A stretch of DNA of 42,060 nucleotides, taken from contig JAICXY010000019.1 in the NCBI GenBank assembly GCA_025934495.1, forward strand, positions 1-42,060, read 5' to 3'. The notes under the pieces were generated by a model. That model was given only the letters and a program-made list of their open reading frames with translations, made no database searches and had not been told where the DNA came from. Positions 13,763-28,969 of this stretch are shown here, one piece after another. The stretch comes from Candidatus Nitrosocosmicus sp. (GTDB taxonomy: Archaea; Thermoproteota; Nitrososphaeria; Nitrososphaerales; Nitrososphaeraceae). Position 1 is the stretch's first letter. Every line of letters begins with the position of its first letter. The translations under genes were made by a program, and so were the position numbers.

Positions 13763-13852
13763 AGCATATCAAAAGAACGAAAGATAATGTTTGTTGCTAT
13801 AGCACTCTTTCTATCAAATCTTGTAAAAAGATATGGAGAACATCTAGTTTAG
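13763..13852 (+). pseudogene. possible transposase scrap inside a 500-bp intergenic region
   Basis: The frame SISKERKIMFVAIALFLSNLVKRYGEHLV* resembles the segment of IS6-like DDE transposases that reads FVAL..LxxLVKKYGxHPV. Only 29 codons remain. The rest of 13415-13919 holds no recognisable gene; TATA-like A+T tracts just before 13920 may serve the P1B ATPase. Confidence 0.3.
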
Positions 13853-13919
13853 TGATTTTGTTCATTTATTTGATAATATTTATAACCAGTCCCCCACCAT
13901 AGCATATAGATATTATAGA

Positions 13920-16109
13920 ATGTCTGGTGCTTGTGAATATAATCCATCAAAACATGAAGAACACATCCAAGGAAAACCTGAAAAAAAATCATTAGAAGTA
14001 GTCAGGCTAATTGCAATGGTTACTGTAATAATTTTCATAGCATGGTTACAAGTGTTGCCTTCAATGGATATATCAAATATCATAATTATCGTTGCAGTAA
14101 TAGTCGGTGGTTATCCTATCTTCAAAGAATCATTTTCTGCTTTAAAAAAGGGGCGAATCAATATGGAGCTTTCAATGGTAATAGCTATTATTGCATCACT
14201 GCTGTTATTCCAATTTCTTCCAGCTATAGTTATTACATTCTTTGCTCTTTTATCTGAATTTATTGAAGAATTCATTGTAGAAAAGGGGCGAAAAAATATA
14301 GAGATGCTCTATAAGCGAGCTCCTAAAAAAGCAATAATAAAAAAGAAAAAAATAGTTAATAATGAACAAAAGGAATCTCTATCAACAAGAACAATAACTC
14401 AGGAAATACCAGTTGAGAATGTCAAGGTCGATGATATTGTTATTGCAAGAGAAGGAGATGTTATACCGACAGATGGTCAAATTGTAGCAGGTTCATCAAC
14501 CATAGACCAATCTAATATAACTGGAGAGAGTATACCAGTTGAAAAAAATGCAGGAGATTCGGTGTTTGCAGGGACCATTAATTTATCATCCAAACTAGAA
14601 ATCATATGTAAAAAGACTTCAACTGATACTACATATGCAAAAATAATTCATCTAGTTGAAGAATCAGAATCATCTAAAGCTCCAATACAAAAGTTAAGCG
14701 ATAAAATGGCAACAAGATTAATACAATTTGCTATCGGACTTTCTGTTATCACATTTATCGTTACACAAAATCTTGTATCCACCCTATCTGTAATTGTAGT
14801 TGCTGGAGCATGTGGTCTTGCAGTGGGAACGCCTATTGCTCTTCTTGCATCAAATAGTAAACTTGCAAAAAATGGTATCATAGTCAAGGGAGGAATACCG
14901 ATTGAAAATATAAATAATTCCGGTATAATAGTATTTGATAAGACTGGTACGTTAACAATCGGTAGACCGACAGTTAAACAAATAATTTCATTTAATAAAT
15001 CAATACACCCAAAAAAAGTTTTAGAGTATGCAGCCATAGCTGAGCGAGATGTAAATCACCCATTAGCAAAAGCCATAGTTGAAAAATCATTGAAAGAAAA
15101 AATTGAAATCTATGTGCCTTCATCCTATAGCAACAACTACAATGGTAATATCGCGCATAAGGGTGACAATCCAAATAATGGCAAAATTACTGTAAAAGTT
15201 GGAAGGGGTGTTTCTTTACTGCATGACGGCCATATGATCAGTGTTGGCAATATTAATTTCTTGGAAGAGCAATTCCAGATTTTATACAATAAAAATATCA
15301 AGCAATTAAATCCAGAATTCCCATGGTCATCATTATCATCATCAGATAAATCCACGTTTAAATATCTTACAAATTTGGACAAGCCATCCTCGCCGGTGTC
15401 ACTATCAAAAGAGTTATCCAATGACTATAATACATTGGCCGGCGATGCTGTACAGATTATCAAGAATAAAACGGATAGTGATTTTTTATTTAATTCTACA
15501 ACTGTTTTAATTGCATTAGACCAACAAATCATCGGCGCAATACTCCTTGAGGATGAACTGCGATTTGGGTCTAAAGAAGCAATATCCAAGATAAAGTCTA
15601 TGGGATTGCATCCAATTATGCTTACAGGAGATAATGAAAAGATAGCAACAAGACTTGCAAAAGAAACAGGTATTGAAGAATTTTATGCTGATCTACTTCC
15701 AGAGGACAAGGTATCAAAAATAAAAGAAATTGTGAAAGAACAAAGAAAGGAAAAAGGTAAGCGAACTACTGTAATTATGGTTGGAGATGGCATAAATGAT
15801 GCACCGGCCCTTGCTGAAGCAGATGTTGGAATAGCAATGGGAAAAACAGGTACAGATGTGGTTATAGAAACTGCAGATGTTATTTTAATGACTGATGATT
15901 TAACTAAAATTCCGCATTTAATAAGGTCCTCAAGGCGAACTATTTTTACAATAAAACAAAACTTTTTTGGAACACTAGCAGTAGATGGACTTGGTTTTAT
16001 CCTTGCATTTGTAGGTATACTCAATCCTTTATTTGCTGCATTTATTCATGTTAGTTCTGAACTTGTTTTTATGATAAATTCTGCAAGGCTTTTGAGAGGT
16101 AGGATATAA
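13920..16109 (+). CDS. P1B-type heavy-metal ATPase with non-canonical GAC motif
   Basis: 729 aa metal efflux pump in the membrane. Order: short Cys/His N-terminus without an HMA domain (SGACEY...HEEH), TM helices ~30-115, actuator TGES at 201-204, metal-site helix ~285-310, phosphorylation site DKTGTLT with Asp340, HP at 380-381 (nucleotide-binding), a long N-domain insert (~395-510, Asn/Ser rich), [12 protein letters not shown] at 622-629 and TM8 HVSSELVFMINSARLL. The usual CPC of the metal site reads AGACGLAVGTP, so only one Cys remains. This makes the substrate unclear; Cu, Zn/Cd or Co cannot be told apart. A CsoR-like gene follows 130 bp downstream in the same direction. Confidence 0.92.
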   Translation: MSGACEYNPSKHEEHIQGKPEKKSLEVVRLIAMVTVIIFIAWLQVLPSMDISNIIIIVAVIVGGYPIFKESFSALKKGRINMELSMVIAIIASLLLFQFLPAIVITFFALLSEFIEEFIVEKGRKNIEMLYKRAPKKAIIKKKKIVNNEQKESLSTRTITQEIPVENVKVDDIVIAREGDVIPTDGQIVAGSSTIDQSNITGESIPVEKNAGDSVFAGTINLSSKLEIICKKTSTDTTYAKIIHLVEESESSKAPIQKLSDKMATRLIQFAIGLSVITFIVTQNLVSTLSVIVVAGACGLAVGTPIALLASNSKLAKNGIIVKGGIPIENINNSGIIVFDKTGTLTIGRPTVKQIISFNKSIHPKKVLEYAAIAERDVNHPLAKAIVEKSLKEKIEIYVPSSYSNNYNGNIAHKGDNPNNGKITVKVGRGVSLLHDGHMISVGNINFLEEQFQILYNKNIKQLNPEFPWSSLSSSDKSTFKYLTNLDKPSSPVSLSKELSNDYNTLAGDAVQIIKNKTDSDFLFNSTTVLIALDQQIIGAILLEDELRFGSKEAISKIKSMGLHPIMLTGDNEKIATRLAKETGIEEFYADLLPEDKVSKIKEIVKEQRKEKGKRTTVIMVGDGINDAPALAEADVGIAMGKTGTDVVIETADVILMTDDLTKIPHLIRSSRRTIFTIKQNFFGTLAVDGLGFILAFVGILNPLFAAFIHVSSELVFMINSARLLRGRI

Positions 16110-16239: not shown

Positions 16240-16503
16240 ATGACACATCATAAAAGACCTGAAATATCAAAAAGAATGGCTCGAATAGAAGGTCATGTTA
16301 AAGGTATAAGAAAAATGCTTGATGAGGATAAGAGCTATCCAGAAATAGTACAGCAGATTTCTGCTGTTCGTGGTGCTTTAGATAGTGTTGTAGAGGTCAT
16401 GATTCAAGATTTGGTTGAGCATTATGTAAGCCAAACAACTACTGATGCACCTGGAAGAGATGCTGCATTAGAGTTAAAGGAAACGGTTTCAAATATATTG
16501 TAA
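16240..16503 (+). CDS. CsoR/FrmR-family regulator lacking cysteines, second copy
   Basis: 87 aa, clearly paralogous to the 12192-12452 gene (shared MTHHK start, IEGHVKxI, YxEIVQQISAVRxALD, HYVSQTT and the C-terminal LKETVSNIL). It again has no Cys; His in DLVEHYV is near the position of a metal-ligand His in CsoR. It lies 130 bp after the P1B ATPase and could form an operon with it or autoregulate. Two paralogs flanking the permease and pump suggest a duplicated regulatory unit. Effector unknown. Confidence 0.83.
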   Translation: MTHHKRPEISKRMARIEGHVKGIRKMLDEDKSYPEIVQQISAVRGALDSVVEVMIQDLVEHYVSQTTTDAPGRDAALELKETVSNIL

Positions 16504-17471: not shown

Positions 17472-17990
17472 TTATGATTTTATATCTAATGCAATTTGCC
17501 CTCCATCTTTTAAAACGATATTTTTAAAATCAGGTACTGGTTTTCCATCAACTGTAGCTTTTACTGTTTTACCATTCAAATTCAATCCCCATACTTTAAA
17601 AAATTCACCTAAGGTATAGATTCTATTAACAGATGATTCTACATGAATTATTCCACTGCTATCATGAGTATGTAGTGGTGCCATTCCTGGCATTGTTCCG
17701 CCAACCATTGCCATTTCTTGCATCCCGTATTTATCAAGTGTATGATCAATCCATAATGGTAGGTCTATGCCTATTTGGTTTGCAACAGTAAAGGGTTTGC
17801 CATCCATTATAATGGTTAGATGTGGATGAATGTGCATTATAATGGGGTTTGATTTTGAGTTAGATTGTCCTTTACTTAATCCTATATTAGCACTTAATCC
17901 AGTTGCTATAACTATTACAATACCAATTATTACTAAATTTCTGAGACTTTGTTTAAATCGTTTGTTTCTATGATTGCTATCTTGTTTCAA
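17472..17990 (-). CDS. membrane-anchored His-rich extracytoplasmic protein
   Basis: 172 aa. A basic N-terminus and one TM helix (~18-36) are followed by an outside domain with HIHPHL (53-58), a Met cluster (MAMVGGTMPGM), LHTHD (106-110), IIHVES and TLGEFFKVWG. This domain, with its conserved His motifs, occurs in archaeal and bacterial exported proteins, but I know no proven function; the His/Met pattern suggests binding of copper or another metal. A paralog with altered ligands lies at 23718. Placement next to the YHS remnant and the P1B ATPase supports a metal role (inference). Confidence 0.75.
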   Translation of the reverse strand: MKQDSNHRNKRFKQSLRNLVIIGIVIVIATGLSANIGLSKGQSNSKSNPIIMHIHPHLTIIMDGKPFTVANQIGIDLPLWIDHTLDKYGMQEMAMVGGTMPGMAPLHTHDSSGIIHVESSVNRIYTLGEFFKVWGLNLNGKTVKATVDGKPVPDFKNIVLKDGGQIALDIKS

Positions 17991-21249: not shown

Positions 21250-22067
21250 ATGGAAAAAGATTTACAGATCAAGGATAAAATTAAAGAGCGATATGGCAAA
21301 ATAGCCCTATTTGGAAATTCGGATTCTTGCTGTATGCCTTCTTCTTCTTCTTCAAAATGCTGTAGTACCGAAGAAGAAGAAGTAGTAGGCGATAAAGATT
21401 CCAACATATTCTCTTCAGCAAAATCAATTGGCTACAATCCAACAGAACTAGAGTCCATCCCTCAATCCTCGATACTTGGAGTTGGATGTGGTAATCCAAC
21501 CAAATTTGCACATTTAAAAGATAGTGATACGGTAGTAGATTTAGGTTCAGGAGCGGGCATAGATGTTTTCCTAGCTGCCACAATATAGTCAAGAATAGTG
21601 GAAAGGTCATTGGAATTGATTTTACAGATAAAATGATAGAAAAGGCAAGAAGCAATGCAGAAAAATACGGCTACAAAAATGTAGAGTTCAGAGAGGGCGA
21701 TATTGAAAAAAGAATACCTGTTGAGGATAATAGTGTAGATGCGGTTATAAGCAATTGTGTGATTAATCTTACTTCCAACAAGATTGATACATTTAGAGAA
21801 ATTTATCGAATTTTAAAACCTGATGGAATTGGAAGGATGGTCATTTCAGATTTAGTTACAGATAGAGAAATAGGTAATGCAACTTCAATAAATGCAGAAA
21901 ACTGGTGTAGTTGTATTGATGGAGCACTAACAAAAGAGAGATATTTCGAAAGTATACGAAAAGCAGGATTTACTGATGTTGAAATATTGGATGAAAAACC
22001 ATATTTAAAAATGGAAAAAGGCGATGATAGGAAGACAGATTACCAGCCTTGTAATAAAAGCCATTAA
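21250..22067 (+). pseudogene. arsM: arsenite methyltransferase, broken by a 2-bp frameshift
   Basis: SAM-dependent methylation of As(III). The first frame (21250-21588) gives CC pairs at 27-28 and 37-38, the GVGCGNP motif (Cys80) and the SAM loop VVDLGSGAGIDVFLAA, then stops at TAG 21586. The next frame continues exactly where ArsM should: VKNSGKVIGIDFTDKMIEKA ... FREGDIEKRIPV ... NCVINLTSNK ... ENWCSCIDGALT. Removing TA (21586-21587) from ACAATATAGTC restores a single ~272-aa protein. All conserved Cys are present, so the gene is recently broken, or the TA is a sequencing or slippage artefact. arsC follows 26 bp downstream. Confidence 0.87.
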
Positions 22068-22093: not shown

Positions 22094-22543
22094 ATGAAAC
22101 TATCATTTAAAAGCAAACCAAAAAGTAGAGTAAAGTATTCTATACTTTTTGTATGTGTTGAGAATGCAGGACGTAGCCAAATGGCAGAGGCCTTTTTTAA
22201 AAAATATGCAACTAGCGAGTATGAAGCAACAAGTGCAGGAACACATCATACCTCTCAAATTAATCCTCTTTCTGTGCAGGTAATGAAAGACGTTGGTATA
22301 GACATTAGCAATCAAAAACCAAAAGAGATGACTGAAGATATGATAAGAAATGCAACAAAAATAGTCAATATGGGATGTATGGATAAGGACTTTTGTCCTA
22401 CATTATTCATTCACAATGTAATAGATTGGGGAATTGAAGATCCGAAAGGAAAGCCTATAGAAAAAGTGAAAGAGATAAGAGATGAAATTGAAAGAAGAGT
22501 AAAAGAAATAGTAGAAGAATTGAAGAGAGAAGAGATAGAATAA
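22094..22543 (+). CDS. arsC: arsenate reductase, LMW phosphatase type
   Basis: 149 aa, cytoplasmic. The P-loop CVENAGRSQMA (Cys21 to Arg27) is that of thioredoxin-coupled ArsC/Wzb-like enzymes; Cys95 and Cys101 (MGCMDKDFC) are placed as the redox pair and Asp111 in DWGIEDP as the general acid. It reduces arsenate to arsenite. It is the second gene of the ars cluster, between arsM and the aquaporin, all in one direction. Confidence 0.93.
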   Translation: MKLSFKSKPKSRVKYSILFVCVENAGRSQMAEAFFKKYATSEYEATSAGTHHTSQINPLSVQVMKDVGIDISNQKPKEMTEDMIRNATKIVNMGCMDKDFCPTLFIHNVIDWGIEDPKGKPIEKVKEIRDEIERRVKEIVEELKREEIE

Positions 22544-22628
22544 CAAGATGAATGAGTTAAGAGTATTAATTTTCTATATTATCTTATCTACAAATCAAAA
22601 ATGTTTTTAAACTAACAACAGAGAAAAT

Positions 22629-23339
22629 ATGTCCAAAGGAACAGATCTTATTAGAATCTTAAAGGATAGTCTATCACTAAATCAAAAAAAGTTTATTGCT
22701 GAAGTTATTGGGACTTTTATCGTAGTAGTATTGGCTACTGGTTCGGTGGTCATCGATGCTAAACTGCATGGAATATTAGGTATTTCTTTTATAGCATTTG
22801 CACCATTTGTAGGTGTTGCAATAGGTGTATATTTATTTGGTAGAATTTCCATGGCGCACTTTAATCCAGCAGTAACTCTGGGGTTTCTTATAACAAAGCA
22901 CATATCAAAAAGACAATTGGTACTTTACATAACTGCAGAGATAACAGGTGCATTGCTTGGAAGCCTATTTGTAAAATACATTATAGGAACACAAGCATAT
23001 TTGGGTGCCAACTCTCCAAATTATGCTTATCCAATACCATTAATTTTTGGGGTAGAATTCCTAGCTTCTGCTTTACTGATGGCAGTTATTTTAGTAGTAG
23101 TATATACAAAAGGCTTGAGAGGTTTAGGTGGAATAGCAATTGGTGGCATCGTAGGATTGGATATATTCTTTTTAGCATTCATATCGGGAGCATCCATGAA
23201 TCCTGCCCGTTCATTAGCACCTGCTTTATTATCTGGAGTATTGGGGAATCTGTGGGTTTACTTTACTGCCACATTTGTTGGAACCTCTGTAATTGCACTT
23301 GCTTTTAGAAAAATATATTTTGATAGCGATAGTCAGTAG
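22629..23339 (+). CDS. MIP-family aquaporin, probable arsenite/solute channel
   Basis: 236 aa with six TM helices and two half-helices. The NPA motifs are HFNPAVTLG (79-81) and SMNPARSLAPA (191-193), both intact. Arg194 after the second NPA is the usual selectivity-filter arginine. Aquaglyceroporins of ars operons (AqpS type) release arsenite produced by ArsC, and the placement directly after arsC supports such a role. Water or glycerol transport cannot be excluded. Start ATG 22629, 85 bp after arsC. Confidence 0.92.
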   Translation: MSKGTDLIRILKDSLSLNQKKFIAEVIGTFIVVVLATGSVVIDAKLHGILGISFIAFAPFVGVAIGVYLFGRISMAHFNPAVTLGFLITKHISKRQLVLYITAEITGALLGSLFVKYIIGTQAYLGANSPNYAYPIPLIFGVEFLASALLMAVILVVVYTKGLRGLGGIAIGGIVGLDIFFLAFISGASMNPARSLAPALLSGVLGNLWVYFTATFVGTSVIALAFRKIYFDSDSQ

Positions 23340-23400
23340 TCATGTGAGGTATCATAAAAAAAGCCTTTTTTAATCCTTTACGAAAATAAATATAAATTTA

Positions 23401-23438
23401 ATAATTATCATTCTCAAATTATGAATGATAGTAATTAT
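23401..23438. promoter_or_regulatory. inverted repeat resembling a Fur-type box
   Basis: ATAATTATCATTC (23401-23413) is matched by its complement GAATGATA-GT-AATTAT (23423-23438), with a two-base bulge. The half-site TGAGAATGATAAT on the minus strand looks like the Fur/Zur-family consensus. It overlaps the ATG (23437) of the Cys-rich peptide, as a repressor site would. No Fur gene is visible in the window, so the assignment is speculative. Confidence 0.35.
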
Positions 23439-23544
23439 GCAAATTATTCGTGTTGATTGTGGGTGCCATCCACTTGAATGCAGAAGTAGTCAATCACCAA
23501 AAGGTATCTGCAATTGTACTCATCCATCTTACTTTATCAGATGA
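23437..23544 (+). CDS. 35-aa cysteine-rich peptide, metallothionein-like
   Basis: ATG 23437 opens MQIIRVDCGCHPLEC and ends KGICNCTHPSYFIR at TGA 23542. It holds five Cys (8, 10, 15, 25, 27) and two His in two CxC clusters (CGC, CNC), a composition typical of metal-thiolate proteins and very unlikely in random A+T-rich DNA. It lies between the aquaporin and the His/Met membrane protein and next to a palindrome. No family recognised. The call rests on composition and context. Confidence 0.48.
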   Translation: MQIIRVDCGCHPLECRSSQSPKGICNCTHPSYFIR

Positions 23545-23717
23545 TGGTGTATTATAACTGTAAAACTGAAAGATCCAATCCAAAATCAATAAAGTATATT
23601 CTCGGTACTTGCTAACATATAGTTCTAGATAAAAGAAGATGAAACTCAAATTATGACCAAGCCTCAAATAACTAGTAATTAATACAGCTTATTTTTTCTG
23701 ATATCATGTAATAATCT

Positions 23718-24269
23718 TTGAAGATAAATGGTCATAGTATTACTAAATGGATAAAATCAAATTATAAACAACTTACAATAATGGGCGTTATAATAGTTGT
23801 ATCAATCGCAATAAATGCTTACATCGGATTTGGTCCTTCTCCTCCATCAGATCTTAAAACAAATTTTCATTCAAATACGAAAGCCAATCCCTTTGCAATG
23901 CGAATTTCTTTTCACCTATCTATTATAATGGACCATAAACCAGTTGCTATACCCAGTCAAATAGGCATAGACGAACCACTATGGCACAATCATACCCTTG
24001 ATAAATATGGTGCGCAAGGAATGCCCATGCCTGGAATGACAATGCCTGGTATGGCTCCGATATACACTAATGATAATAATGGATTAATCAAGATTGGGTC
24101 ACTAGTTAATAGAAATTACACATTGGGTGATTTTCTCAATATTTGGGGAATGGATATTAAGGGTAAAGCAGTAATGGCAACAGCAAATGGAAAGCCGATA
24201 TCAGATTTTAAAAACCATATTTTAAAAGATAGAGAACAGATTAGTATGAATATTACAAGTAATAGATAA
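23718..24269 (+). CDS. membrane-anchored Met-rich paralog of the 17472 protein
   Basis: 183 aa from TTG 23718; one TM helix at ~18-38 and an outside domain aligned throughout with the 17472-17990 protein (FHLSIIMDHKP, IGIDEPLW, LDKYG, NRNYTLGDFLNIWGM, GKPISDFKN). Here the conserved histidines are gone: HIHPHL became RISFHL, LHTHD became IYTND and IIHVES became LIKIGS. In exchange the Met cluster has grown (MPMPGMTMPGMAP), a pattern known for Cu(I) binding. It may have changed metal preference or lost one site. Confidence 0.75.
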   Translation: MKINGHSITKWIKSNYKQLTIMGVIIVVSIAINAYIGFGPSPPSDLKTNFHSNTKANPFAMRISFHLSIIMDHKPVAIPSQIGIDEPLWHNHTLDKYGAQGMPMPGMTMPGMAPIYTNDNNGLIKIGSLVNRNYTLGDFLNIWGMDIKGKAVMATANGKPISDFKNHILKDREQISMNITSNR

Positions 24270-24526
24270 CTTTGGATACTAAAAAGCTAAAGTAATAATA
24301 AAATCAAATTTTTAAAATACTATATAGAAATGCAAATGCAAACGTACTATATTACTTACACTTGCTATTAGATAGAGTGTATATTTTTTTTAATAATGTA
24401 CCGTTTTTATTGCTATTGATGTCAAGTATCTCGAGCATTGCACTAAAAACAAGATTCGAATCAAATCCTTTTGGACATATTTTAATGAATATGATTATTC
24501 GACATTTAATAAACAGAAAAGATACA

Positions 24527-24575
24527 AGAGATACAAAACTGGAATTAATTTCCCATATAATATCCATATTGAATC
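24527..24575 (+). repeat. dispersed repeat, short copy
   Basis: About 49 bases (AGAGATACAAAACTGGAATT then AATTTCCCATATAATATCCAT) match the left end of the repeats at 25809 and 31063. Only the first part is present. Confidence 0.6.
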
Positions 24576-24614
24576 TTATAAGAGTAGATATAATTTAAAT
24601 TCAAAAGAAAAACC

Positions 24615-25259
24615 TTAACGTTTTTTGGCAATCACTAGAAAGAGATTAACCGGGTCTTCATATTCTTCTTTTATCTGCAATATTTCAAAACCTTCGGATG
24701 ATGATAAATTTCGTATCTCTTTTTCTGTAAAGAATCGTATATGAAATCCGTTTATATCGTAGATTCCTTTTTCTATCTCCCTACCATTTCCATAGAATTT
24801 GTCATCATGACTTCTAACAGAAAAAAAGTTCCAACCTGTAGGTTTTAACACTCTTCTTATTTCCGATAATATAAAATGAAGTTCTTCTTCTGAAAAGTGC
24901 ATGTTAAGGAACATATGAGAATATACTGCATCAAAATAGGTATCTGGAAATGGAAGTGGTTTGTTCCTAATGTCAAAAAGCTGTGATTTTACTGGAAGGT
25001 TTTTTTCATTTGATATCTTATTGAGTATATTAACAGCGATAATAGAATAATCTAATGCCTCTATATTGATTCCATGGGATGCAAAAAATACTGTGTCTCT
25101 ACCATGACCTGCACCCAGTTCTAATAGCTTCTTTTTATTATTAATGCTGTTGCTGTCTGTTTTCAAATGGTTAAAACTATGTATCGCAAAACTGCTGGGC
25201 TCATCTCCAAAAAAAGAATTATCTGTTCTATAAGCTTTATTCCAGATTTCTTGTCCCAC
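24615..25259 (-). CDS. class I SAM-dependent methyltransferase
   Basis: 214 aa, cytoplasmic. SAM-binding motif I is LLELGAGHGRDTVFFA (45-60), motif II acidic end EALDYS and motif IV DTYFDAVYSHMFL. The N-terminus (WNKAYRTDNSFFGDEPSSFA) resembles TehB/thiopurine-methyltransferase-like enzymes that methylate tellurite or other small anions. With the rhodanese upstream in the same direction and ars genes nearby, action on a metalloid is plausible. Substrate unknown. Confidence 0.86.
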   Translation of the reverse strand: MGQEIWNKAYRTDNSFFGDEPSSFAIHSFNHLKTDSNSINNKKKLLELGAGHGRDTVFFASHGINIEALDYSIIAVNILNKISNEKNLPVKSQLFDIRNKPLPFPDTYFDAVYSHMFLNMHFSEEELHFILSEIRRVLKPTGWNFFSVRSHDDKFYGNGREIEKGIYDINGFHIRFFTEKEIRNLSSSEGFEILQIKEEYEDPVNLFLVIAKKR

Positions 25260-28762: not shown

Positions 28763-28969
28763 TCAATCATGATGACCGTGGTGATGACCGTGGTGATGAC
28801 CGTGGTGATGACCGTGGTGATGACCGTGGTGATGACCGTGGTGATGACCGTGTCCGTCTTCAGTTGCTAATGCAGGGCTAGCATTCAAAATAGGACTCAT
28901 TGCAAATGCAAATAGTGCAACTATTGCAATACTAGCTATAACTAATTTTTTGTTATCGAGTTTTCTCAT
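28763..28969 (-). CDS. exported GHHH-repeat protein
   Basis: 68 aa: signal peptide (LVIASIAIVALFAFA, cleavage likely after ALA near residue 36), then six perfect GHHH units and GHHD. The mature peptide is nearly only His and Gly, a strong Ni/Cu/Zn chelator, so metal buffering in the envelope is likely. It is encoded by a 12-bp tandem repeat and therefore prone to copy-number change. Companion to the poly-His protein at 11258. Confidence 0.8.
   Translation of the reverse strand: MRKLDNKKLVIASIAIVALFAFAMSPILNASPALATEDGHGHHHGHHHGHHHGHHHGHHHGHHHGHHD
28771..28852 (+). repeat. 12-bp tandem repeat, 6.8 copies
   Basis: GATGACCGTGGT repeated perfectly over 82 bases (plus-strand reading), encoding the GHHH units on the minus strand. 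All copies are identical, which indicates recent expansion or conversion. Confidence 0.9.

Follow-up and report, generated by a model that had tools for sequence, protein, structure and literature searches.

Ammonia-oxidising archaea are heavily dependent on copper. Metallothioneins are known from bacteria and eukaryotes. In the words of a 2013 review, "MTs are absent in archaea" (PMC3600143), and a copper survey of Haloferax mediterranei found no metallothionein (PMC9240420). The literature on archaeal and thaumarchaeal metallothioneins, searched with most subscription journals outside coverage, holds no report of a family such as the one described here. The window, the whole 42,060-nucleotide stretch of Candidatus Nitrosocosmicus sp. 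that was analysed, is a metal-resistance region (Table 1) and also encodes an AsnC regulator with a TRASH domain and an HxlR regulator. A 35-residue open reading frame (ORF) in this region was marked in the initial annotation as a candidate archaeal metallothionein. The best explanation of the whole, with a probability of about 0.72, is that the ORF is a relic, broken by an insertion sequence (IS), of a family of nine-cysteine mini-proteins that most likely bind metal(loid)s.

Table 1. Features of the window in the region of the 35-residue ORF and the neighbouring metal-resistance genes
Feature	Position	Strand	Evidence or remark
P-type metal ATPase (CopA-like)	13848..16109	+	PF00122 E 1.7e-44 at 14397-14873; open frame
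CsoR/FrmR-type metal-sensitive repressor	16240..16503	+	PF02583 E 1.3e-19
arsM-type methyltransferase, frameshift near 21580	21250..22067	+	ORFs 21250-21588, 21633-22067
LMWP-type ArsC-like arsenate reductase	22094..22543	+	PF01451 E 3.1e-22
MIP aquaporin/aquaglyceroporin, last ars-cluster gene	22629..23339	+	PF00230 E 4.2e-37
Imperfect inverted repeat, called Fur-like in the initial annotation	23399..23437	.	Near chance expectation
Relic 5' two thirds of nine-Cys mini-protein gene (MQIIRVDCGCHPLECRSSQSPK)	23437..23502	+	Family profile matches
Right-end remnant of DDE_Tnp_1 insertion sequence	23500..23666	+	IS copies, terminal inverted repeat at 23648-23666
ORF tail GICNCTHPSYFIR and stop	23503..23544	+	IS transposase 3' sequence, out of frame
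His/Met-rich exported protein	23718..24269	+	Paralog of 17472-17990 (-)

A composite open reading frame

The ORF is read from the forward strand (frame 23425/23437-23544, stop codon 23542-23544), and alignment with the nine-cysteine family places the start codon at ATG 23437, giving 35 residues. Read from this ATG the composition is as first described, with five cysteines, two histidines and the two CxC motifs CGC and CNC, and the gene order is also correct with arsM-arsC-aquaporin on one side and the His/Met-rich protein on the other. One ORF of this kind (25-60 residues with at least five cysteines, two CxC and two histidines) is present in the window, whereas Markov-shuffled windows have 0.03 on average. 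The ORF is a composite of a family-derived head and a mobile-element tail.

Codons 1 to ~22 (MQIIRVDCGCHPLECRSSQSPK) show homology to ~40-residue proteins of a Nitrososphaeria family, the family profiles recovering the fragment with significant E values of 1.2e-6 and 9.2e-6 (A1 and A2 profiles, 30 bits), and the fragment is 53% identical to one member (L046) over 30 residues. Compared with the family core CADCxCxPxEC, the sequence RVDCGCHPLEC retains three of the four core cysteines with the aspartate, proline and glutamate and has lost the first cysteine and the alanine. In family numbering D7, C8, C10, P12, E14, C15 and S20 are kept, whereas Cys5 (now Arg), A6, Cys24 (now Ile), P25 and the whole CCCW (cysteines at positions 32-34) are lost. 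The cysteine at position 27 is a coincidence of the IS sequence, and the C-terminal half of the family (CPxC and CCC(W)) is replaced by ICNCTHPSYFIR from the IS. Because the first cysteine, the CPNC cysteine and CCCW are gone, the window copy has probably become a pseudogene or a decayed variant, a truncated relic with presumed loss of function. Other shortened copies exist, as two family members (L049/L193, G025:C1:889868-889972, and L138) have an in-frame stop just before CCCW, which is TAG in G025.

A search of positions 23301-23644 against the 200 contigs of the same genome gives 39 matches, and all except the self match begin at about query position 197 or later, corresponding to window position ~23498 onward (alignment starts ~23498-23504). 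The genome holds about 39 copies of the IS with DNA identity to the window tail mostly of 70-82%, and the matches fall on the 3' ends of a family of transposase genes whose products end ...VSAIVLLSVLLYQLMVYYNCKTxxxNPKSIKYMLGTG. An intact-looking copy (L010) of 345 residues matches PF01609 (E 1.8e-21) and is flanked by a pair of 19-bp terminal inverted repeats (TGAGGCATGGTCATAATTC), the right one of which is kept in the window; transposase homology and terminal repeats together are those of a DDE_Tnp_1 element. The transposase frame is broken in the window and the ORF is read in a frame that differs from the transposase VSAIVLLSVLLYQ, so the second cluster of CxC and histidine, ICNCTHPSYFIR from the IS 3' end, is an accidental metal-site-like motif. 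Both of the CxC clusters first reported are in the ORF but the second (CNCTHP) is IS DNA, ~80% identical and out of frame, and of the two motifs proposed for homolog searches VDCGCHPLEC belongs to the conserved nine-cysteine family while CNCTHP has no such homologs. The window shows that an IS relic can generate a convincing yet accidental metal-binding motif.

Gene (SPK) and IS (TTTCACAAAG) look alike in TCACCAAAAGG, the site of the fusion point; the junction is confined to the window genome, and all 14 further genomes compared from the genus lack it. In the preferred reading the ORF derives from a gene encoding a ~40-residue, nine-cysteine, probably cytosolic protein, of which it keeps the 5' two thirds. 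An IS insertion followed by a later deletion may have removed the 3' part of this gene and joined the rest to the transposase 3' end, the new tail being read in a different frame from the transposase and carrying its CxC by accident. The frame is still open even though the IS sequence has had time to diverge by ~20% from the other copies; such persistence is possible by chance in a short ORF and could also mean retained use.

The inverted repeat overlapping the ORF start exists, with arms of 15 nt (23399-23413 and 23423-23437) that are 87% complementary and separated by a 9-nt spacer, but its proposed identity as a Fur box finds no support, given its layout, near-chance frequency and the lack of the left arm in the intact paralogs. 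The window contains about five distinct sites with comparable inverted repeats, counted as 10 overlapping hits (2.65 in shuffles), and the 8-bp core at this exact spacing is unique in the window. The right arm has a similar counterpart ahead of the start codon in one intact paralog (L053) whereas the left arm has none, and the palindrome was not found in either intact paralog (L053, L054). A 12-nt direct repeat, CTCAAATTATGA, occurs at 23413-23424, within the palindrome, and at 23645-23656, overlapping the IS terminal repeat; it may be due to chance or may be a trace of the IS event. An Rfam scan of positions 22500-24700 gave no match.

The nine-cysteine mini-protein family

Protein search of 61 related genomes yields the family consensus M-x-I-x-CADCGCxPxECxxSxSxxECPNCxxxxCCCW, and profile matches are present in 87 of 300 sampled genomes of the class, some of these being diverged fusion domains. 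The window genome itself holds two intact paralogs, on C125 and C179 (L053/L054). Scanning 84,980 species genomes of bacteria and archaea with a core pattern locates 77 loci, almost all of them under names such as Thaumarchaeota, Nitrososphaera and Nitrosotenuis, and the few under Bathyarchaeota, Thermoplasmata or other names may be binning errors. Among cultured archaea, Nitrosotenuis chungbukensis is a carrier (L105/L140). The family is genuine and widespread, apparently unnamed, and its genes are short enough for gene callers to miss; no members were found in viral contigs.

Eight cysteines (C5, C8, C10, C15, C24, C27, C32 and C33) are invariant in 45 sequences, which have ~9 cysteines in 36-45 residues. 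The core pattern fixes C5, A6, D7, C8, C10 and P12, so that their invariance in the A2 alignment is in part a product of how the sequences were selected, while C15, C24, C27 and C32-C34 lie outside the search pattern and nonetheless show no variation or almost none. With 13 independent close pairs combined, pS is 0.29 and pN 0.061 (Fisher P 1.5e-19), a pN/pS of ~0.2, and the family members are therefore protein-coding genes under strong purifying selection. The refuting observation named in the initial annotation, a lack of conserved homologs together with substitution ratios like those of noncoding DNA, is accordingly not borne out for the N-terminal two thirds of the ORF, whereas the CNCTHP tail lacks such homologs.

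Four family members have no match in Pfam and NCBIfam at E<=1, including to any known metallothionein profile, and a sequence-profile search of the PDB returns chance matches only. The AlphaFold2 model made from 45 sequences (pLDDT 82, pTM 0.50) has two short helices and no strands, displays no metal site and has no match by fold in the PDB.

Gene neighbourhoods and membrane-protein fusions

The gene order of the window recurs with intact members of the family. In L112 an intact mini-protein gene and the aquaporin gene of an HxlR-arsM-arsC-aquaporin cluster are 150 nt apart, an arrangement like that of the window, and in L163 an intact mini-protein gene is followed by arsM, arsC and aquaporin on one strand in an operon-like arrangement. 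Another intact gene (L132) is placed 309 nt from a homolog of the His/Met-rich protein, a fourth mini-protein (L145) is near HxlR, CsoR and a P-type ATPase, and three others (L126, L119 and L114) are near TRASH regulators and P-type ATPases. Over 75 family loci (613 kb) a P-type ATPase is within ~5 kb in 9, where a density of roughly 1.5 per genome predicts ~0.6; the loci are not phylogenetically independent, so the nominal P value (1e-8) exaggerates this excess. An ars cluster is in reach in only 2 of 75. Other frequent neighbours are AhpC/TSA, DsbA-like thioredoxins and a secreted DUF7482 protein, with many neighbourhoods being of the thioredoxin/AhpC type or unrelated. No single conserved operon was found for the family, its neighbours being mixed, and since these thiol-related and secreted proteins are frequent neighbours as well the theme is metal and thiol chemistry and not one fixed operon.

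A small insertion divides the arsM-type gene of the window into two frames, while its homologs in three loci (L163, L112 and L250) are intact, the split reflecting either a decaying ars locus or an assembly error. The two His/Met-rich exported paralogs, 52% identical, are on both flanks of the ars region, with a third copy on G000:C13 that is 77% identical to the 23718-24269 protein, for which no Pfam match was found. A further exported protein of 68 residues (28763-28969, reverse strand) ends in near-perfect HHGH repeats and is a candidate for another metal-binding peptide.

Family members also occur fused to membrane proteins. In three loci (L103, L104 and L110) the member forms the C terminus of a DUF6789-like membrane protein, and in L180-L191 a diverged nine-cysteine version (CAECxCxPxxC...CxxC...CCC..IH; family profile E 1e-4 to 3e-11) forms the N terminus of an unnamed membrane protein of ~220-290 residues. 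The latter Nitrososphaeria proteins are found in G015, G180, G241, G309, G204, G148, G179, G135, G025, G029, G147 and G178, share conserved EIGENTG and TAETV membrane motifs and gave no meaningful Pfam match in the two members tested; they are possible metal transporters. A CDF cation-efflux protein (L126; PF01545 E 1.1e-7) starts with a similar pattern of aligning cysteines, although a profile score of just 5.3 bits with a composition bias of 28 makes homology suggestive only.

Alternative readings and comparison with known systems

A chance reading frame unrelated to any real gene is a highly improbable account of the ORF. It describes the tail, which is truly accidental, but the N-terminal part matches a conserved family (profile E 1.2e-6) and the ORF adjoins the same genes as the intact copy in L112, so that profile match and synteny already disfavour it. 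The fusion could alternatively be a working, newly evolved metal-binding peptide in which the IS tail supplies a replacement CxCxxHP cluster, consistent with the open frame, the five cysteines and two histidines that remain, the seven conserved residues kept in the head and the location among metal-resistance genes. This is improbable, if less so than a chance frame, as the conserved cysteine positions listed above are gone, the junction is confined to the window genome and the frameshift in the upstream arsM suggests a decaying locus or assembly errors; the pN/pS of ~0.55-0.6 between the window copy and its paralogs spans 19 codons, too short to decide. The truncated, cysteine-depleted fusion is unlikely to be a working metallothionein, and the proposal of an archaeal metallothionein is plausible when moved from the window copy to the intact family.

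The intact members are small, rich in cysteine and carry CxC and CxxC motifs, and their cysteine count, copper and arsenic gene neighbourhoods and fusions make a metallothionein-like role plausible. A putative metal(loid)-thiolate-binding role is the best explanation: the cysteines would most probably form a thiolate cluster that takes up As(III) or a soft metal ion (Cu(I), Zn(II)), and the proteins may buffer metal or pass it on where their genes adjoin those for P-type ATPases and CsoR/TRASH regulators or the arsM-arsC-aquaporin detoxification genes. The nine cysteines equal the count of the mammalian metallothionein beta domain, which for this family is mere analogy. An unlikely reading, though weightier than a working fusion, is a structural zinc-finger mini-protein acting as regulator or adaptor and not as metal buffer, as in the haloarchaeal C(P)XCG micro-proteins. 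The two CxxC pairs (CADC and CPNC) 15 residues apart fit one tetrahedral zinc site, and archaea commonly encode micro-proteins of this sort (PMC11241148, PMC10716476); however, nine cysteines in 41 residues far exceed the need of one site, metal and arsenic genes are often neighbours, and the glycine of the first knuckle (CADCG) is missing from the second, where the residue after CPNC is T, S, R or another and almost never G. The strandless AlphaFold2 model weakly disfavours a classical zinc ribbon.

The broader proposition, that Nitrososphaeria encode widespread nine-cysteine metallothioneins for copper and arsenic handling which have been recruited as cysteine domains of membrane proteins, stands at even odds. 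If true, it contradicts the published absence of metallothioneins in archaea, and for intracellular copper buffering in ammonia-oxidising archaea a conserved cysteine-rich mini-protein is a concrete candidate.

The IS5/IS1182-like DDE_Tnp_1 elements are the source of window positions 23500-23666, as seen from PF01609 and the 19-bp repeat of the intact-looking copy, the assignment to an IS family being provisional as NCBIfam IS models match only below cut-offs. The haloarchaeal micro-proteins of the HVO_2753 and HVO_0758 type resemble the nine-cysteine family in being archaeal and under 70 residues with CxxCG at the N-terminal knuckle, whereas the family has a second motif, CPNC, without glycine, five further conserved cysteines and a different lineage. 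Compared with the bacterial (SmtA/BmtA/NmtA, Pfam Metallothio_Pro) and eukaryotic metallothioneins, the family is archaeal, has another cysteine spacing with a conserved Trp and CCC, and is a putative metal binder, while it shares with them small size, cysteine-richness (9 Cys in ~41 residues), CxC/CxxC motifs and genes located near metal resistance.
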